The notes beneath the pieces are model-generated. The model was not told the origin of the DNA and searched no databases. It saw nothing but the letters and a program-made list of their open reading frames with translations. The position numbers and the translations under genes are program-made. Positions 9,411 to 30,794 of a DNA stretch of 36,306 nucleotides are shown piece by piece. Position 1 is the stretch's first letter. Each line of letters starts with the position of its first letter. Location of the stretch: the NCBI GenBank assembly GCA_031269545.1, contig JAISYZ010000151.1:1-36306 (forward strand), read 5' to 3'. The stretch is from Prevotellaceae bacterium (lineage in GTDB: Bacteria > Bacteroidota > Bacteroidia > Bacteroidales > UBA932).

Positions 9411-10094
9411 TTACGATAATTTAATTGGATTATCTTTTATGACTTTCAATAAATACTTGTAAATATCTGTGTTTCTGTTATTATACCTAAATTCACATTC
9501 TTTTAGATGCAAGTAAAATTTATGTTGATGTATGCCTCTATATTTGCTCAATCTTACCTTACATAAGCCCCAGAAGTTCTCTATACCGTTGATGTGATTA
9601 CGACCATTAGCAAATTCATTATCAGAGTGTTTTATTCTGTAATGGCGTTTATAACCAAAGTCTGCCAAGCCATCATAAGTCTTAAAATAATCGGTATAAA
9701 TTGTTGAGTTTTTATCTGCCTTGCTTTCTATGATGGGTAGTAGTTCTTTAATAGAACAATACTTAACTATCTGTGTATAAACATTCCCATTGCGTTTTAA
9801 CATGCCAAATACAGGCGTTTTACCATAAGCGCCTCTTCCTCTTTTCCCTCGTACTCTTTTTGCTCCAAAGTAACTTTCATCAAGTTCTATTTCTCCTGTA
9901 TCAAAGCAACTTATCTTTTCGCATTCTTCTGCAATACGCTCTCGTATCTTGTCAAAAAGACGATTAACACAGATTCTACTTACACCTGTATGTGCTGATG
10001 TTTTTGTAGCATCAACATCAACGCAAAATAACCTTAAAATATCCCTAAATTTCTTCTCTGAAATGTGGGAACGGAATATATACTTATTATTCAT
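9411..10094 (-). CDS. IS1595-family (ISXO2-like) DDE transposase
   Basis: The 227-residue transposase starts at the ATG at 10094 (MNNKYIFRSHISE). An upstream TTG at 10115 would overlap the -7 box and is unlikely. An N-terminal helix-turn-helix (TKTSAHTGVSRICVNRLF) is followed by the ISXO2-like catalytic domain: ELDESYFG (first Asp), YTDYFKTYDG (second Asp) and NHINGIENFWG (Asn/Glu region). The zinc ribbon of longer IS1595 members is absent, as in the IS1016-like subgroup. All expected catalytic blocks are present, so the gene looks intact. It ends 5 bp before the start of the hybrid DUF6994-like frame on the same strand. Confidence 0.93.
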   Translation of the reverse strand: MNNKYIFRSHISEKKFRDILRLFCVDVDATKTSAHTGVSRICVNRLFDKIRERIAEECEKISCFDTGEIELDESYFGAKRVRGKRGRGAYGKTPVFGMLKRNGNVYTQIVKYCSIKELLPIIESKADKNSTIYTDYFKTYDGLADFGYKRHYRIKHSDNEFANGRNHINGIENFWGLCKVRLSKYRGIHQHKFYLHLKECEFRYNNRNTDIYKYLLKVIKDNPIKLS

Positions 10095-10112
10095 AGAATA
10101 TCTAATAGTTTG

Positions 10113-10120
10113 CAAAGATA
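10113..10120 (-). promoter_or_regulatory. -7 box of the IS transposase (TATCTTTG)
   Basis: Minus-strand TATCTTTG, an exact TAnnTTTG match, lies just inside the right IS end and 18 bp before the transposase ATG. It could also drive the truncated gene downstream. Confidence 0.6.
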
Positions 10121-17912: not shown

Positions 17913-17966
17913 TTAGAAAAAAAAATGAAAATGAATAAACAAATTTTTAATTTTAATAAAAAGATT

Positions 17967-18740
17967 ATGACAAAAAATTTAACAAAATTCATGGTAAACA
18001 TGCTGCTGGTGGCAACATTTGCCGCAGTAGTTGCCTCGTGCAGCAAAGAGGATCCTGCGCCTGTAAAAAAACAGCCTGATGTATATGTTGCAGGACGACA
18101 AGACTATAATAGTGGAACCAATGGAGTAGCCACTGTATGGAAAAACGGCATGCTTACCGCGCTTACAGATGGGACAAACTATGCCAAAGCATATTCCGTT
18201 TTCGTATCGGGCAGCGATGTATATGTTGCAGGATACGAATATAACGGAAACATCTATGTAGCCAAAGTCTGGAAAAACGGCGCTGCTACTGTGCTTACAG
18301 ATGGAGCAAACTCTGCATGGGTAAATTCGGTTTTCGTGTCGGACAGCGATGTATATGTTGCAGGATACGAATATAGTGGAAACAAAACTGTAGCCAAAGT
18401 ATGGAAAAACGGTGTGGCAACTGCGCTTACAGACGGTACAAACTATGAGCGGGCAACGTCTGTTTTTGTGTCGGGCAGCGATGTATATGTTGCAGGAGAC
18501 GAATATAGTGGAAACAACTATGTAGCCAAAGTATGGAAAAACGGCGCTGCTACTGCGCTTACAGATGGGACAAACGATGCAGATGCAAATTCCGTTTTCG
18601 TGTCGGGCAGCGATGTGTATGTTGCAGGATACGAAAATAACGGAAGCAGAGATGTAGCCAAAGTATGGAAAAACGGTGCTGCTACCGCGCTTACAGATGG
18701 AACAAACTCTGCATATGCAAATTCCGTTTTTGTAAAATAA
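17967..18740 (+). CDS. Lipoprotein of five near-identical 44-residue repeats (propeller-like)
   Basis: With the start at 17967 the product has 257 residues. MTKNLTKFMVNMLLVATFAAVVASC is a clean lipoprotein signal with the lipidated Cys in VASCS; the upstream ATG at 17925 would give an unusually long n-region. After SKEDPAPVKKQP come five units of the form DVYVAGYEYNG...VAKVWKNGAATALTDGTN..A.SVFVSGS, starting at 18078, 18216, 18348, 18480 and 18612. The periods are 138 bp once and 132 bp three times. The YVAG and VWKNG strands suggest beta-propeller blades, but five units plus a short end is a low count. No enzyme motif is visible. Function is unknown; a surface or periplasmic binding role is my inference. 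Confidence 0.85.
   Translation: MTKNLTKFMVNMLLVATFAAVVASCSKEDPAPVKKQPDVYVAGRQDYNSGTNGVATVWKNGMLTALTDGTNYAKAYSVFVSGSDVYVAGYEYNGNIYVAKVWKNGAATVLTDGANSAWVNSVFVSDSDVYVAGYEYSGNKTVAKVWKNGVATALTDGTNYERATSVFVSGSDVYVAGDEYSGNNYVAKVWKNGAATALTDGTNDADANSVFVSGSDVYVAGYENNGSRDVAKVWKNGAATALTDGTNSAYANSVFVK
18078..18737 (+). repeat. Five tandem in-frame repeats of 132 bp (first one 138 bp)
   Basis: Units start at 18078, 18216, 18348, 18480 and 18612, each at GATGTATATGTTGCAGGA or a one-base variant. Long stretches are identical at the DNA level, including synonymous positions, which indicates recent duplication or gene conversion. Confidence 0.9.
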
Positions 18741-23707: not shown

Positions 23708-23790
23708 AAACCTAACAGGTTTCGGAAACCTGTTAGGTTTAAAATGTCTGTTTATTAATTTTTGTATCTGAAAATTTTGCTTTTTAATAA
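23708..23790 (+). repeat. Dispersed repeat copy B with a perfect 15-bp-arm palindrome
   Basis: AAACCTAACAGGTTT (23708-23722) and AAACCTGTTAGGTTT (23726-23740) are exact reverse complements with a 3-nt loop. The tail core at 23741-23778 matches copy C at 36 of 38 positions in inverted orientation, and also matches copy A. The repeat lies just past the stop of the outer-membrane gene, so the hairpin may end that gene's transcript. Confidence 0.8.
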
Positions 23791-23798
23791 GCGATTAA

Positions 23799-24542
23799 TT
23801 AAAAAATCCTGTAGCTAAGAGTAAAATTTAACATTGGCCATAATTTAAAAATTTTTTTCGGGAGATCGCTCAATTCGTCTGAATTATTTAAAGTGTTCTG
23901 ATCTTCTTGTGAGATATATATTTGCTTGCTGTCAAATTTGAAATCACCTTGATAAATTATTCCTACATCAAATTTAAAAGCTATTCTTTTGTTTGCTATT
24001 GAGCGTCCAAGTCCAATTCCAAAATAAGGTTTAACAATGCCGCCTAATTTAACTTTTGCATCAAAAGTTCCGTCAGTGCGTGGTTTTACAATAATATCGT
24101 CGTTAAGTTCAAAAATTACATCGGGATTGTAATTATTTATTTTTCCTTTCATCGAAACAGAATTGGAACCGAGATAAAAACCTGCTGAAAGAGAAAAAAT
24201 ACCGTTTTTCCATGGATAATAATCAAGTAAAAGTTTAAAATTAACAAAACTTAATTTCGGGTCGAAAAGAGAACCTGACAATTGTTCGCTGTGCGCATTA
24301 GCATCAGGAATATAACCGTCGGGAGAAATGTCAAAATCCAAACTTGGGCTAAGGCTGAAGATATCGAATCCGCCTCTTAACTTGAAGTTAGGAAACAATG
24401 ATGTTGAAGCAGTAATACCGGGTCCATAAGTCCCCGCTTCCAAACCAACAGCAAGTTGGTCAAATGCTTTTTGAGCCATTGTGGCTGTCGAAAAAGCAAA
24501 GCAGCAAAGAACTGCAATAATAATTTGATTTTTTCTAACCAT
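23799..24542 (-). CDS. Small outer-membrane beta-barrel protein of unknown function
   Basis: The 247-residue protein has a signal peptide (MVRKNQIIIAVLCCFAFSTATMAQ, cleavage near residue 24). The rest alternates polar and hydrophobic residues in strands such as FKLRGGFDIFSL, FVNFKLLLDYYPW, GIFSLSAGFYLGS, VKPYFGIGLGRSI, AFKFDVGIIYQG and MLNFTLSYRIF. It ends in Phe, as barrel proteins inserted by the Bam machinery do. I recognise no specific family. It has its own -7 box and stands at the end of the co-directional envelope cluster, so it may be regulated separately. Confidence 0.75.
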   Translation of the reverse strand: MVRKNQIIIAVLCCFAFSTATMAQKAFDQLAVGLEAGTYGPGITASTSLFPNFKLRGGFDIFSLSPSLDFDISPDGYIPDANAHSEQLSGSLFDPKLSFVNFKLLLDYYPWKNGIFSLSAGFYLGSNSVSMKGKINNYNPDVIFELNDDIIVKPRTDGTFDAKVKLGGIVKPYFGIGLGRSIANKRIAFKFDVGIIYQGDFKFDSKQIYISQEDQNTLNNSDELSDLPKKIFKLWPMLNFTLSYRIF

Positions 24543-24732: not shown

Positions 24733-27408
24733 TTATTGAATCTTCATGTTGAATTTCAAAATAATGCTTCCGGGAATGCGGCGCATGAAACTTTCTATCA
24801 TTGCGTTATCGGTGTACGAAATTTCGCGCCAATGTTTGTTGGATGTATGCATCATGTCGTTTCCGAGTAACTGCAATTCATATTTTTTATTGGCAAACGA
24901 ATAACGAATATCAGCATTCCAGTAATAAAAATTTTGCATCACTTTGCGTGCATTATTATGTTCGTAATCGAGCGCTGTTGATATGTAGAAATTGTTTTTA
25001 CGGAACGAGATTTTTCCCGAATACCGTTGTATATCCTGTTTGTTTGCAACTGTTGTTTTGTAATGATTACGCGAAAAAGCGGCTTTTAATTCAAAATTAA
25101 ATCCTTCTTTGTAACTGCTCGAAACGTCAAAATTGGCGGATGTCGAATATGTTTTGGTTTTTATTTCGTTTCCTGCGCTGAAATACAAATAGGTATTTTG
25201 CCTGTACGTAAGGCTGATGCCTGTCGAAATTGGTGCAAACAGAAACTTTTTCGAAAACGATGAAGTTCCCCAAATATCGTATTTGCTTGGAGCCGAAACC
25301 GTGCGAATTTCATTTAACGAGCCTGTTCGATAATAATCTTTTGATGCTGTTATATCGGTTTTTCCGTATCGCAGAGTAGTAAAAAACTGTGTATTGTAAA
25401 ACTGATTAAAATCGGAAAAAGTTGTTGAAACTGAATGTCGATTTGCAAAAAGTTTCGTAAAACTGCTGCCGTTTGCATAACTGTCGAAACGGTTGATGTA
25501 CATATTAGATATTAAGTCGGCAATGGATGTTGTTGATGTACTTTTTCGATACGAAATTGAAAATCGGCGAGCCTGTTTCGGAATTATTGAAATTTCGAGT
25601 TCGGGTTCTGCTACAATTTTGTTTTTATCTTCAAGCGTTTCGGCAATATTGTGATAAAAAATCATGCTACGCACGGTCAAACCCGCTTTAAATCTGAATA
25701 TGCCCTGATTTTTCGTGATATTTGCATTTATTGTCTGATTGAAAAATCCTAAATAAGAATCGTTTATAAAATGCTCGTCGTCAATCAGCCTTTTTTCTTC
25801 ATTCAAATGATTTTCATAAATAAAAGATGTAAAGTCGTTGCGCGTATAATTTGCGCCCAGAGCGATTTTCACAAAATACGATGAGTTCAGTTTATGCATA
25901 TACGACAAGTCGGCGCCTGCCGTTTTTTGTTTTGTGGTTTTTTGCTGTAATACATAAAACAAATCGTTGTAAGCGGCAACGGTGAGCGGCAATAAAAGCG
26001 AATCGGTCTGGAAACTGTATTCGGCGGGAGTATCTTTGTATGTAAAATTTGCGTTGGCAGTAAAAACGTTGTCTTTGATTTTTTTGATTGCAGTAAGATT
26101 ATGTGTTGTGTTCAGCGATTCGCGTCTGATTTGCGACAGGGTAAACAAATCAACATTATCAATGTCGGATGTTGATTTTGCAAGTGCACTGGTAAAAATT
26201 CCCTGATAAATATAACTTAATGTCGCCGATGGATTGTATGATAATTTTAAAAACCCGCTGCCCATTTTATTACGTTTTATGCCTTTTGTAGATTTTGTAT
26301 AATGTTCGTCTCCGTTTGCGTTGAAGTAGGTATACTGGCTTTCGTCCTGATCTTTGAATTTCGACATATTGAAAAGTCCGTAAGTATTTATTTTGAATTT
26401 TTCGCTTGGTTGAGCCGAAATGTTTAATATGCCGAGATTGTTCATGCTGCTGTAAGTGTTGGCATCTGCCGCCGTCAGCAGCGACATATCCGTTTCGTCG
26501 AAGGTAAACGAAAACGTATTTGAACCTGTCGAAAATTCATTCATTCCGCCTTTCATTTTAATATAATCGTCAAATTCCAAAAGGTTTTCGCCAAGATTAT
26601 TTCCCGAAAATGTTAATGATGACATAAATTTAGGCATCAGCCGTATTATGTTGTTTTTTGTATAAAATTTATTCTGCACGCCGCCTGCAAGACTGATATT
26701 TCCGCTGATTTTTTCCCAAAAACTTTTATTTACTTTTACATTTATGGCAGTTTTTTCGTACGATTGAAATCCTTTCATAATATCGTATTCGCTGTAATTG
26801 TTTACAACTTCGACTTTTTCGGCTATGTTTGCGGGCAGATTCTGCAAAGGCACCTGCGTGTTGCCCGAAAACAGATCTCTGCCTTCAATCAGAATAGCAT
26901 CTACATCTTTGCCCTGCGCTGTTACCTTTCCCGATTCGGTAACGTTAATGCCGGGAAGTTTGTTCATCATTTCGCCGAGCGTAACTTCCGAGCCATCGGT
27001 GTAGGCAAGCGGATTGTAGCGAACGGTATCACCGCTAAATTCTATTCCTTTATAGTTTGCCTTCACCTTTGATGCTTCGAGTGTCGTAATTTCTGCTTCG
27101 AGTTTGAAGTTAACGTCAAGATTGTTGTTTCCGAAAACTCCTACTTTTGTCCGCTGCGTTGAATATCCTGTGTAACGCACCTCTACCAAGTACTGTCCGT
27201 TTGGTATTTGCAATAATCTGTACATGCCGCTGTTATCGCTTGTGGCATACTTCACGACAGACGAATCTTTTGCCGACAGCAGTAAAACCGTAGCCAAACT
27301 TGCAGGTTCGTTTTTTTCGTTGGTAATATGTCCTTTTACGCTGTTGGTTTGAGCAAAACCGCAGGTGCAGCAGACAAAAAACGCCGCAAAAAATAAAAAC
27401 TTTTTCAT
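24733..27408 (-). CDS. Large outer-membrane beta-barrel protein (CarboxypepD_reg plus plug plus OMP_b-brl_3)
   Basis: The 891-residue protein has a signal peptide (MKKFLFFAAFFVCCTCGFAQ). A carboxypeptidase-regulatory-like beta domain (about 22-105: VKGHITNEKNEPASLATVLL, GQYLVEVRYTGY) and a plug-like region follow (VTLGEMMNKLPGINVTESGKVTAQGKDVD, ILIEGRDLFSGN, IAEKVEVVNNYSEYD). The rest is a long barrel of alternating strands to residue 891. This is the TonB-receptor-like architecture of the OMP_b-brl_3 family, though no clear TonB box is visible. It lies 83 bp downstream of the GLPGLI gene, a pairing common in Bacteroidota. The substrate is unknown; peptide, metal or polymer transport are all possible. 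Confidence 0.88.
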   Translation of the reverse strand: MKKFLFFAAFFVCCTCGFAQTNSVKGHITNEKNEPASLATVLLLSAKDSSVVKYATSDNSGMYRLLQIPNGQYLVEVRYTGYSTQRTKVGVFGNNNLDVNFKLEAEITTLEASKVKANYKGIEFSGDTVRYNPLAYTDGSEVTLGEMMNKLPGINVTESGKVTAQGKDVDAILIEGRDLFSGNTQVPLQNLPANIAEKVEVVNNYSEYDIMKGFQSYEKTAINVKVNKSFWEKISGNISLAGGVQNKFYTKNNIIRLMPKFMSSLTFSGNNLGENLLEFDDYIKMKGGMNEFSTGSNTFSFTFDETDMSLLTAADANTYSSMNNLGILNISAQPSEKFKINTYGLFNMSKFKDQDESQYTYFNANGDEHYTKSTKGIKRNKMGSGFLKLSYNPSATLSYIYQGIFTSALAKSTSDIDNVDLFTLSQIRRESLNTTHNLTAIKKIKDNVFTANANFTYKDTPAEYSFQTDSLLLPLTVAAYNDLFYVLQQKTTKQKTAGADLSYMHKLNSSYFVKIALGANYTRNDFTSFIYENHLNEEKRLIDDEHFINDSYLGFFNQTINANITKNQGIFRFKAGLTVRSMIFYHNIAETLEDKNKIVAEPELEISIIPKQARRFSISYRKSTSTTSIADLISNMYINRFDSYANGSSFTKLFANRHSVSTTFSDFNQFYNTQFFTTLRYGKTDITASKDYYRTGSLNEIRTVSAPSKYDIWGTSSFSKKFLFAPISTGISLTYRQNTYLYFSAGNEIKTKTYSTSANFDVSSSYKEGFNFELKAAFSRNHYKTTVANKQDIQRYSGKISFRKNNFYISTALDYEHNNARKVMQNFYYWNADIRYSFANKKYELQLLGNDMMHTSNKHWREISYTDNAMIESFMRRIPGSIILKFNMKIQ

Positions 27409-27491: not shown

Positions 27492-28202
27492 TTATCTCAT
27501 AATTTTTATAGTTATGCCGCCGCCCGACTCATCGCTTTGTTCCATTGTTTTCATGCGTTTTTCGACCATTTTATCAAATTCTTCCTTGCTTATTTTTTTA
27601 CCTTTTGTCGGAGCGGCAATATCGCAGTCGGCGTCAATCAGTATTTCCTGTGCAGAAACAGTTGAATTGTCGGATACGACTTCCAGCACAAGTCCATCCA
27701 AACCCGTATAAAAAGGACCATCTTTTATCGGCAAGTGCGGGCAAAACCAGACTGAGGCTTCTTTTTCTTTATTCTTTGATATTGCTTTTGTGCATGTATA
27801 ACCAAGTATGTTTTTTGTCGAATCGGTAATTTCCCAAATAGAATCGGCAATTTTCAATTCGCTTTCAATCAAAAAACCTTTGCCGAAAAAATCCTTATAC
27901 GATATTTCCTTGTTTGTATTGTGATTTTTGTAGATAATGTTTTCGGGAGTTTTAATATTAATTCCGCCCGACGGTTCATTTTCATTTTTTAGCGATTTGA
28001 AAACGCTTTCGCCGTTGCTGTAACAAAGCATGTTTTTGATTTTTGAACTTTTCTTAATCTGTTCGATAAGATGTGCATCCAAACCATCGGCTTTGATTTG
28101 CATTTTTGGCTGTGTTTCGTAAATCACCTGTATGGTTTGCGATTTTGCCTGATTAAATAAACATGCGCAGACTGTTGCTGCAATTAAAATTTTTGCTTTC
28201 AT
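27492..28202 (-). CDS. GLPGLI family exported protein
   Basis: The 236-residue protein has a signal peptide (MKAKILIAATVCACLFNQAKSQ). The GLPGLI (Porph_ging) hallmark appears as GPFYTGLDGLVLEV, a variant with D in place of P, preceded by LGYTCTKAISKNKEKEASVWFCPHLP. Upstream are the family's DSIWEITDSTKNILGY and YSNGESVF segments. GLPGLI proteins are periplasmic or surface proteins of unknown role, usually encoded next to TonB-receptor-like proteins, as here. I see no TAnnTTTG box directly upstream, so it may be read from the blaI promoter through blaR1. Confidence 0.85.
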   Translation of the reverse strand: MKAKILIAATVCACLFNQAKSQTIQVIYETQPKMQIKADGLDAHLIEQIKKSSKIKNMLCYSNGESVFKSLKNENEPSGGINIKTPENIIYKNHNTNKEISYKDFFGKGFLIESELKIADSIWEITDSTKNILGYTCTKAISKNKEKEASVWFCPHLPIKDGPFYTGLDGLVLEVVSDNSTVSAQEILIDADCDIAAPTKGKKISKEEFDKMVEKRMKTMEQSDESGGGITIKIMR

Positions 28203-28328: not shown

Positions 28329-28359
28329 AACCTGACAGGTTTCCAAAACCTGTTAGGTT
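28329..28359. repeat. Palindromic intergenic hairpin (AACCTGACAGGTTT family)
   Basis: AACCTGACAGGTTT (28329-28342) pairs with AAACCTGTTAGGTT (28346-28359) with one G-T wobble and a 3-nt loop. It is a diverged copy of the palindrome at 23708-23740 without the 38-bp tail. It lies in the 188-bp gap between the blaR1-type and GLPGLI genes and could attenuate read-through. Confidence 0.7.
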
Positions 28360-28390: not shown

Positions 28391-30358
28391 TTATCTATCT
28401 TTTGTTTCAACAATTATTACTCCTTTTCTTGCTTTTATTCCGTATTTTTTTATTGCCTCTTTATCTTTCAAAACGCTTATTGTGCCGATTTGCCTGCCCA
28501 TTTTTGCAAATTCGTCAAATTTCATCTCTTTTCCATCTACAATTACTAAAATGTTTGAGTCAAAAATATCGGCGGATTTATCGGAATCCCATTTGAAATA
28601 ATAATTATGATTTATCTTTTTAATGGAATCGTTCCATGATTTTAAATTAAAATTCCAACCTTTTAATAACGAATCGCTCTGTGATTTGGAATAGAGGCTC
28701 AAAGTATTTGACAGAGAATCGTTCCATGATTTTAAATTAAAATTCCATGCTTTTAATAAAGAATCATTAACCGATTTTGAATAATTAAGATTCCACTTTT
28801 TTAACAATGAATCGCTAACCGGTTTTGAATAATCAAATTCCCAACTTTTTAATAACGAATCATTTTGTGATTTTGAAAAATAAAAATGCGGCTTATACAG
28901 CGAATCAATATTGAATTTTTTTATATCATTATTATCGAAATAAAATGAATAGGCATAATTTTTCAACGAATCAAGAATAGTGGTATCGCAAGTAACATAC
29001 ATTAAAGTATTGCCGTTGTTGATTGTCGTTGCCGAAGTATAAACCCGTGTGTTTGCCTTTTTGTTTTCTTCATTATATTTTTTTGTTTTTATCAGTATTA
29101 CACTGGTTTTTTCAGCGTCATCTTTTTTTGCTTTTGAATCGTTTTTGATAACTGAAATGCTTTCTATTTGTGTTTTGTTAATATCGTCCATGCTGTTCAC
29201 TATTTTGTCGTCCACAATAATCAAAACATCGGAATTTAATATTTTGCCGTTTTCACTGTCCATAAAAACTGCAACAGTATCCTGCAGGTTGCCTTGCGTA
29301 CTTACGATGACCGACATTTGAGAATTGCCTGTGGAATCATTGCTTTGCATTTGACTGAAAACAGTGAGCATAATCGAATCGCTTGCATTTGTATTTCCAT
29401 TCTGTTCGTCTTCGTTTTGCCTGATGAAATCGCTGATGCTGACAGACGAAATTTTTTCCATTTCGTTTTTCACCTGCGGGTTTGCGAATGTCGTTACGAC
29501 AATGGCAAGCATTGGCAGCACATATAAATATTTCAACCTTGAATAAGGATTTGATTTGTTTTTTGACATCATTGTTATGCGTTTTTGAAGTTTGTTTTTA
29601 TTAAAATTGTTTGCCAGAGCAAAAAGTTTTGAGCCTACGGCTTTTTGTATCAGCAGCATTTGATACTGTTTGGCATTTACTCCTTTTTTTATTACGGCTT
29701 CGTCGGCTTCGTATTCGTGAATGTTTTGCAGTTCGCGTTTGAACAGCCACACAACAGGATTAATCCATTGCACCATACTGTAAATATGACAAAGCAACAG
29801 ATCTATCGAATGCCGTTTCATGATATGAGCCTTTTCGTGAGTGATGATTTCATTTCCACTTTCGGCAAAATCCTTTTCGGAAATTACTATATATTTGAAC
29901 CAGCTGAAAGGCGCAATATTTTTATTGTGTACGATAATAAGTGTAATATTGTTTTCCAAAATTTGCTTTCTTCCGTTTTTTACGAGCAGGCAAAGTTTGA
30001 TTACGGAATAAATATTGCGTATCGGCAAAAATATTACGCCTGCAATGTAAATCAGCAATATTGCGTGCAGCCATGTTAGAGTTGCAGTTTCGGGCTGCTG
30101 CATCAGTTCAATGCCTGCCGCATCCGAATAAACAAGAGTCGATTGCAGCATCATCATTATGTTGTTCAACATTTCGGTTTGCTGTTCTGTCGAAGATATT
30201 TCTATCAGAGGCAAGGCGATTGATAAAAATAAAATTCCCAGCAATGCAGCGCGATTAAATTTGTGGAATGTTTCGTTGCTAAGCAAAAGTTTGTAGAATA
30301 AATAAAATACCGACAAACATATTCCCGATTTGATTAAATAAACTAATAGCGTTCCCAT
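28391..30358 (-). CDS. BlaR1/MecR1-type M56 membrane metalloprotease with two plug-like domains
   Basis: The 655-residue protein starts with membrane spans (MGTLLVYLIKSGICLSVFYLFYKLLL, AALLGILFLSIALPLIEI, AILLIYIAGVIFLPI). The zinc site HEKAH is at 174-178 with a downstream glutamate in EYEADEAV, and a further span lies near YLYVLPMLAIVVTTFA. This is the antirepressor family that senses an envelope signal and cleaves its BlaI partner. Beyond residue 300 there is no penicillin-binding sensor. Instead there are two plug-like segments of the kind found in TonB receptors (VLIIVDDKIV..IESISVIKN near 378; ILVIVDGKEM..ISVLKDKEAIKKYG..GVIIVETK near 605-650). A stretch of degenerate DSLLK.WN repeats lies between them. 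The signal is unknown. Confidence 0.87.
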   Translation of the reverse strand: MGTLLVYLIKSGICLSVFYLFYKLLLSNETFHKFNRAALLGILFLSIALPLIEISSTEQQTEMLNNIMMMLQSTLVYSDAAGIELMQQPETATLTWLHAILLIYIAGVIFLPIRNIYSVIKLCLLVKNGRKQILENNITLIIVHNKNIAPFSWFKYIVISEKDFAESGNEIITHEKAHIMKRHSIDLLLCHIYSMVQWINPVVWLFKRELQNIHEYEADEAVIKKGVNAKQYQMLLIQKAVGSKLFALANNFNKNKLQKRITMMSKNKSNPYSRLKYLYVLPMLAIVVTTFANPQVKNEMEKISSVSISDFIRQNEDEQNGNTNASDSIMLTVFSQMQSNDSTGNSQMSVIVSTQGNLQDTVAVFMDSENGKILNSDVLIIVDDKIVNSMDDINKTQIESISVIKNDSKAKKDDAEKTSVILIKTKKYNEENKKANTRVYTSATTINNGNTLMYVTCDTTILDSLKNYAYSFYFDNNDIKKFNIDSLYKPHFYFSKSQNDSLLKSWEFDYSKPVSDSLLKKWNLNYSKSVNDSLLKAWNFNLKSWNDSLSNTLSLYSKSQSDSLLKGWNFNLKSWNDSIKKINHNYYFKWDSDKSADIFDSNILVIVDGKEMKFDEFAKMGRQIGTISVLKDKEAIKKYGIKARKGVIIVETKDR

Positions 30359-30373
30359 GATTTTGAAATTTAG

Positions 30374-30730
30374 TTATGATTTTTGTACATTTTCTATCAG
30401 TTTTTTCAATTCATCGAGCGAAATTTTTTCTTCTTCAACAAGCGATGAAACTATGTTGAAATATGAATTGTTGAAATATTTGCTGACAACATTGCTCAAC
30501 GTTTCTTTGTGAAATTCTTCTTCGCTCACGGCAGGAAAATACCGATAGGTATTTCCAAAAGTTTCGTGCGACAGAAATCCTTTGTTTTCGAGTATGCGCA
30601 CAATAGTCGAAACAGTGTTGAAATGTGGTCGCGGTTCGTCGTAGAACGTCAGCAGTTCTTTTACAAATAAAGGTCCTTTTTCCCAAAAGAAATCCATTAT
30701 TTCTTCTTCCTTTGTTGTGAGTTTTCTCAT
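30374..30730 (-). CDS. blaI: BlaI/MecI-type transcriptional repressor
   Basis: The 118-residue winged-helix protein has the family's KEEEIMDFFWEKGPLFVKELL start, the recognition region FNTVSTIVRILENKGFLSH, FGNTYRYFPAVSEEEF and a C-terminal dimerisation helix pair (LSNVVSKYFNNSYFNIVSSLVEEEKISLDELKKLI). It should bind as a dimer to palindromic operators and be cleaved when the adjacent M56 protease is activated. It lies 15 bp before the blaR1-type gene. Palindromic candidate operators sit just upstream of its own -7-like box, which suggests autoregulation. Confidence 0.92.
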   Translation of the reverse strand: MRKLTTKEEEIMDFFWEKGPLFVKELLTFYDEPRPHFNTVSTIVRILENKGFLSHETFGNTYRYFPAVSEEEFHKETLSNVVSKYFNNSYFNIVSSLVEEEKISLDELKKLIENVQKS

Positions 30731-30750: not shown

Positions 30751-30794
30751 CAAAGAAACTGATAATTTTAGTTTTATAACTAATTTATTTAGTT
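30751..30794 (-). promoter_or_regulatory. blaI promoter with candidate BlaI operators
   Basis: Minus-strand TTTCTTTG at 30758-30751 is one base off TAnnTTTG. Directly upstream, TAGTT-TTAT-AACTA (30769-30782) and AACTAA-TTTAT-TTAGTT (30778-30794) are overlapping palindromes sharing an AACTA arm. They lie between the -7 and -33 regions, where a repressor would block transcription. Binding by BlaI is my inference. Confidence 0.45.

Follow-up and report, generated by a model that had tools for sequence, protein, structure and literature searches.

An M56 protease of the BlaR1 type with SusC plug-like modules in its predicted periplasmic tail, encoded in a BlaI operon of Bacteroidota

A BlaR1-type protease with a plug-derived tail

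We found that a BlaR1-type (M56) membrane metalloprotease, encoded behind a BlaI-family repressor, ends in two modules related by sequence and fold to the plugs of SusC-type transporters. The gene lies at positions 28391 to 30358 of a 36,306-nucleotide stretch of metagenomic DNA (the window), on the reverse strand like the other genes of its operon; it opens with ATG and codes for 655 amino acids. What the system senses is probably outer-membrane transport rather than an antibiotic, and we tentatively favor a derepression switch in which a sensor derived from the TonB system has replaced the extracytoplasmic part of BlaR1.

The protein passes the gathering score of the Pfam family Peptidase_M56 (PF05569, 46.7 bits with a cutoff of 31, E 3e-12). 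Residues 1 to 295 (29474-30358) make up a transmembrane bundle and cytoplasmic zinc-protease core modeled with a pLDDT mostly above 90 and alignable to Staphylococcus aureus BlaR1. A Foldseek search with the whole-chain model retrieved the S. aureus BlaR1 structure 8exp (E 1.6e-6, prob 1.00), with a low whole-chain TM-score because the M56 tail is disordered. An earlier note on this DNA, made from the sequence alone, had described the protease core as intact from its HEKAH motif, and this description stands: the alignment with 8exp places the HExxH motif (HEKAH, residues 174 to 178, 29825-29839), the gluzincin ExxxD motif (E215...D219, 29702-29716, the equivalent of E242xxxD in BlaR1 [PMC9834060]), and the active-site Tyr and Arg. 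Among 45 aligned relatives, H174, E175, H178, E215, D219, and R260 are invariant and Y232 is nearly so. A conserved NNF before KRI in the M56 proteins aligns with the BlaR1 autocleavage stretch SHSF.

In BlaR1 the protease is on the cytoplasmic side, the C-terminal sensor is outside, and BlaI is cleaved directly by BlaR1 (PMC9834060). The same topology would place everything after the last transmembrane helix of the window protein (residues 271 to 292, 29483-29548, a helix in the model) in the periplasm, and the cleavage of BlaI may likewise carry over from BlaR1. Pfam and NCBIfam scans found no transpeptidase or penicillin-binding family in the window M56 protein, the C-terminal class D-like penicillin-binding sensor domain included, as the earlier note had supposed for the extracytoplasmic part, and NF000326 matches the M56 core only (18.4 bits with a cutoff of 400). 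A phage-derived protein was also considered and dropped, since a PHROGs search returned no match.

Two half-plugs on a repeat-rich linker

The earlier note had singled out residues 370 to 420 and 595 to 655 as plug-like. A profile built solely from seven SusC proteins of relatives matched the window tail at residues 369 to 427 (mini-plug 1, 29078-29254, iE 1.9e-5) and 593 to 654 (mini-plug 2, 28397-28582, iE 1.9e-12), and none of the shuffled decoys (five per tail, about 134 tails) fell below 1e-3. Mini-plug 2 was also recognized by the NCBIfam SusC/RagA signature TIGR04057 (E 4.4e-6, residues 624 to 653) and by TIGR04056 (residues 600 to 653), both with scores under the curated whole-protein cutoffs, as expected for a fragment. 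All 10 complete orthologs of the genus match TIGR04057 (best 2.2e-16), while the Pfam Plug family PF07715 was not reached by the window M56 protein. The YG and NGV signature residues are no longer present in mini-plug 1 of the window; in two sister species (L041 and L042) the same segment is a textbook mini-plug ending in GDKGKNGVIIITTKK, so that the window version is a diverged homolog.

The predicted structures agree with the profiles. Modeled alone with AlphaFold2, mini-plug 2 folds as strand-strand-helix-strand-helix-strand (pLDDT 75), and the top matches of this model in a Foldseek search of the PDB were SusC, RagA, Cir, and further TonB-dependent receptors (E from 0.07, prob 0.96 to 0.99 for the first five). 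In the full-length model, a confident core is followed by two folded mini-domains (pLDDT about 72 to 88 for mini-plug 1 and about 86 to 93 for mini-plug 2) with about 165 disordered residues between them (pLDDT 26 to 51), and the whole chain aligned with the plug of SusC 8a9y over 53 columns (rmsd 2.1 Å, 40% identity, prob 1.00, E 0.16). The plug relation claimed for both segments is thus borne out by profile and by structure comparison. Each module corresponds only to the C-terminal half of a plug, its final 55 residues or so; the TIGR04056 match of mini-plug 2 spans only positions 151 to 204, the tail lacks a barrel, and a motif search found no SusC-type TonB-box motif in it. Being half-plugs with no such motif, the tail modules cannot be a working plug.

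The linker (residues 428 to 592, 28583-29077) contains the DSLLK/WN repeats described earlier, in a tandem block of 45/48-nucleotide units at 28626-28879 (repeat family D1). We counted five copies of a 68-nucleotide reference at spacings of 45, 45, 48, and 48 nucleotides, and the pair reported as nearly identical in DNA (28626-28675 and 28716-28765) has 3 mismatches in 50 bases. The number of repeat copies and the length of the linker vary among species of the genus. Judged by its low predicted order, the linker most resembles a spacer, and a large part of the tail may do no more than tether, given the divergence of mini-plug 1 and the tolerance of the linker to changes in length.

The BlaI operon and its predicted operators

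The gene 15 bp upstream of the M56 gene (30374-30730) codes for a BlaI/MecI-family repressor of 118 amino acids (PF03965, Penicillinase_R, 100.1 bits with a cutoff of 22.6, E 1.3e-28), with MecI as its relative in the PDB (E 2e-8), so the BlaI partner that the earlier note had presumed is present. The VLNF stretch of MecI aligns with VSSL in this protein, leaving a hydrophobic residue other than Phe at P1'. Downstream, the operon ends as expected in an outer-membrane barrel, preceded by a GLPGLI family protein. The latter is the third gene (27492-28202; TIGR01200, 128.1 bits with a cutoff of 50, E 4.2e-37, and synteny), and the barrel protein (24733-27408, 891 amino acids) carries a CarboxypepD_reg domain (PF13620, E 1.6e-13) and also matches Plug weakly (E 0.03); its homologs in other genera, such as L049 and L053, match OMP_b-brl_3. 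A small beta-barrel protein resembling outer-membrane proteins (23799-24542), with a weak match to PF13505 (E 0.018), may be the last gene.

The order BlaI-M56-GLPGLI-barrel is kept in the relatives of the genus wherever the contig reaches, with one optional insertion: L034 (6357-8009) and L035 (5071-6753) have an extra M1-family, aminopeptidase-like gene (HEMAH) that separates M56 from GLPGLI and may point to a peptide-related substrate of the operon. A BlaI-M56-barrel arrangement was seen in two other genera as well. The M56 and GLPGLI genes are 3 to 8 bp apart in most relatives and 188 bp apart in the window, where the gap houses a 31-bp double palindrome, AACCTGACAGGTTTNNNAAACCTGTYAGGTT (28329-28359), found again at 23709-23739. 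It is a dispersed, REP-like element with about 92 copies in the 2.9-Mb genome (control, 0). Elsewhere in the window, an open reading frame at 9411-10115 (reverse strand), beside an unrelated one, resembles an IS1595-type DDE transposase (translation judged by eye), and a lipoprotein-like open reading frame at 17925-18740 (forward strand) contains near-identical repeats of about 40 amino acids (SVFVSGSDVYVAGYEYSGN...VAKVWKNGAATALTDGTN).

Upstream of blaI, we found paired palindromes of the form AACTA-N7-TAGTT, 21 bp apart, conserved in all 11 genomes of the genus. In the window, predicted operator 1, AACTAAATAAATTAGTT (30778-30794), is the only perfect copy in its own genome, and predicted operator 2, AACTAAAATTATCAGTT (30757-30773), has one mismatch and is perfect in most relatives of the genus. 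Across the 11 genomes the perfect pattern occurs one to four times per genome, less often than a reversed-pattern control (5 to 17), and the blaI promoter holds 19 of the 25 perfect sites by hand count. This rarity possibly reflects selection against stray BlaI sites, or else base composition. The same pattern is also found upstream in other genera (e.g., L044 and L045). The BlaI circuit, if the repressor binds these sites as their placement suggests, looks local, dedicated, and self-regulating, and the best-supported reading is that its sole evident target would be its own GLPGLI/outer-membrane-barrel operon.

The link between barrel and protease does not extend through the order. A strong barrel match was found in 13 of 149 genomes, and 6 of the distant ones have a GLPGLI gene in the flank, but none of the distant genomes with a strong match has M56 or BlaI within the barrel flanks, and we rejected an order-wide association of barrel and M56 for this reason. 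The GLPGLI-barrel pair therefore appears to be independent of M56 and to have been put under BlaI control in this genus. Most of the plug-tailed M56 genes of other genera have no adjoining barrel gene. This neighborhood evidence, with neither the barrel nor the GLPGLI-barrel pair apparently tied to M56 outside the family, would count against a sensor of the TonB system.

TonB-system domains in other M56 tails

An M56-family match was found in 104 of 148 sampled genomes, in a search that also catches other metalloproteases according to its control. The tails of 119 M56 proteins outside the orthologs of the genus, a sample drawn from the better-scoring matches and hence with biased frequencies, contain TonB_C (52), Plug (12), CarboxypepD_reg (8), and ExbD (5) domains in Pfam and SusC families in NCBIfam (21). 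They are highly varied (L074 to L164), with MORN repeats, amidase, DUF1573, POTRA, and coiled coils besides. The SusC-trained profile detected mini-plugs in 10 of 92 proteins of the phylum sample and in 8 of 32 from relatives within the order; several of these proteins also carry TonB_C, and plug-like tails occur in many families, in up to three copies. A profile search of the PDB with the M56 alignment likewise returned BlaR1, TonB, and SusC. Judged by these matches, the plug-tail architecture is a recurrent theme of Bacteroidota and not unique to the window.

The genome of the window itself encodes a second BlaI-M56 pair, with a TonB_C tail (L001, G000:C155, 617-2316), and in G002 (L036) such a pair stands head-to-head, in divergent orientation, with the plug-type system. 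The SusC-type motif EVVVxGY, from the TonB-box region, occurs in the tails of L051, L066, L145, and L164, all of other genera; 4 of 134 tails have it (shuffle mean 0.46, maximum 3), an enrichment that is suggestive only. Fusions of M56 with a TonB C-terminal domain (MecR1-like TonBs) were reportedly described in Bacteroidota around 2007. No account of M56-plug sensors was found in the papers searched. The presence of TonB_C, Plug, ExbD, and CarboxypepD_reg in other M56 tails favors a TonB or outer-membrane signal, and from this recurrence we infer that the half-plugs may read the state of TonB or of an outer-membrane receptor.

A tail with its own history

The orthologs of the genus come from metagenome-assembled "Prevotellaceae bacterium" genomes, possibly from termite guts, judging by the isolate names. 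The core and the tail of the window protein have different closest relatives. The core is closest to L036 and L037 (87 and 86% identity) and the downstream barrel also groups with L036 (86%), whereas the tail is closest to L034, with mini-plug 2 being 95% identical to that of L034 and 64% to that of L036. Between the window and L034, dS is 0.48 for the core but only 0.09 for mini-plug 2, and the core and tail topologies within the genus reject each other (AU test, p 8e-4 and 5e-48). The simplest reading, which the sequences suggest, is that the tail was exchanged between lineages of the genus by recombination; a chimeric metagenome assembly could give the same picture, yet the two flanks are in agreement. 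All regions are under constraint at nonsynonymous sites (dN/dS 0.12 to 0.53), which argues against mere decay of the tail. Mini-plug 2 is constrained in 10 of 10 complete orthologs, and the core is well preserved, in contrast to the linker and the juxtamembrane parts, which are free to vary.

Proposed switch and alternative explanations

In the switch that we tentatively favor, BlaI dimers bound at rest to the pair of 17-bp palindromes in the blaI promoter would keep blaI, M56, GLPGLI, and barrel genes repressed. The M56 protein would span the inner membrane, its zinc protease on the cytoplasmic side and two SusC-type half-plugs in the periplasm; the linker that carries them, long, disordered, and expanded by repeats, might allow the distal half-plug to extend toward the outer membrane. 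The mini-plugs might bind TonB or a component of outer-membrane transport, either a plug-engaging TonB-type C-terminal domain or the barrel of the operon itself; a change in this engagement would relieve the autoinhibition of M56, leading to cleavage of BlaI and induction of the operon, and so to more sensor, GLPGLI protein, and barrel. The proposal builds on the observed architecture, the homology and fold of the plug modules, the catalytic residues, the conservation of operon and operators, the purifying selection, and the separate history of the tail; what the mini-plugs would bind, what signal they would carry, and which way it would act is inferred.

The varied composition of M56 tails, from coiled coils and MORN repeats to amidase and DUF1573, suggests that the tail is perhaps an accessory of the plug-and-play kind. 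Along with the free variation of the linker and juxtamembrane parts beside a well-kept core, it fits a somewhat unlikely alternative in which the mini-plugs serve, in a generic way, for docking or dimerization in the periplasm and the transmembrane bundle or an extracytoplasmic loop, comparable to loop EL1 of BlaR1, reads membrane or peptidoglycan stress or a small molecule. However, with TonB_C or Plug in close to half of the tails sampled, the assortment is not random, and the constraint on mini-plug 2 holds throughout the complete orthologs. It is improbable that the tail is a decaying, nonfunctional remnant of a SusC gene fusion: the lost signature residues of mini-plug 1 and the repeat-rich, unstable linker would fit such a remnant, but mini-plug 2 is kept, and can be aligned, in every complete ortholog, dN/dS stays below 0.55 throughout, and similar tails recur in many families.

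The plug tail might also attract, as bait, a TonB-type C-terminal domain, for instance that of the BlaI-M56-TonB_C paralog in the same genome, the two M56 proteins forming a cross-talking pair that measures TonB occupancy. The paralog itself, the head-to-head placement of both systems in G002, and the single proteins that bear both plug and TonB_C are in keeping with this idea, which we nevertheless consider unlikely, since the two systems are adjacent in one genome only and TonB normally binds the TonB box of TonB-dependent transporters, not the C-terminal plug half kept in the M56 tail. Very improbable is a functional sensor of beta-lactams or cell-wall damage in the manner of canonical BlaR1/MecR1. 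The M56 core, the BlaI partner, and the BlaR1-like fold are what such a sensor would have, but we dropped this identity because Pfam and NCBIfam scans show no penicillin-binding domain; besides, no beta-lactamase was found among the operon genes profiled, and perfect operators are almost confined to the operon itself.

Relation to known systems and significance

The derepression switch proposed here combines traits of several known systems. With BlaR1/MecR1-BlaI/MecI of S. aureus and Bacillus licheniformis it shares the N-terminal transmembrane and zinc-protease core with its gluzincin residues, the 8exp fold, the adjacent BlaI-type repressor, and the palindromic operators; unlike them, it has two half-plugs and a disordered linker in place of a penicillin-binding sensor, and its operon codes for a GLPGLI protein and an outer-membrane barrel, not for a beta-lactamase or PBP2a. 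The mini-plugs have the sequence signature and the fold of the C-terminal half of SusC/RagA plugs, whereas the barrel, the N-terminal half of the plug, and the TonB-box motif of these transporters are missing from the M56 tail, which is anchored in the inner membrane through M56. Like the M56-TonB C-terminal fusions, one of which is found in the same genome, the protein joins an M56 core to a TonB-system module on a periplasmic linker; it differs in having a plug half instead of a TonB C-terminal domain, so that the logic of binding would be reversed. The proposed flow of information, from the state of an outer-membrane transporter through an inner-membrane protein to transcription, resembles FecA/FecR-type surface signaling, but it would use a protease and a BlaI repressor instead of an anti-sigma/sigma pair, and the plug piece would sit on the inner-membrane sensor and not as a signaling domain on the receptor.

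On a broader scale, it is conceivable, though doubtful, that BlaR1-type proteases of Bacteroidota are general monitors of the TonB system, in which the penicillin end has repeatedly been swapped for a TonB C-terminal domain, half-plugs, ExbD, or CarboxypepD_reg; occupancy would then be fed to transcription through cleavage of BlaI, separately from sigma/anti-sigma systems, and the plug tail of this genus would be an exchanged specificity cassette. BlaI-M56 pairs are common in Bacteroidota, and their sensing ends are often parts of the TonB system. BlaI-M56 genes of this type should not be annotated as beta-lactam resistance determinants. With the repressor here apparently dedicated to one operon for outer-membrane proteins, the label of "antibiotic sensor" may give way to a testable hypothesis, that of transcriptional feedback from outer-membrane transport.
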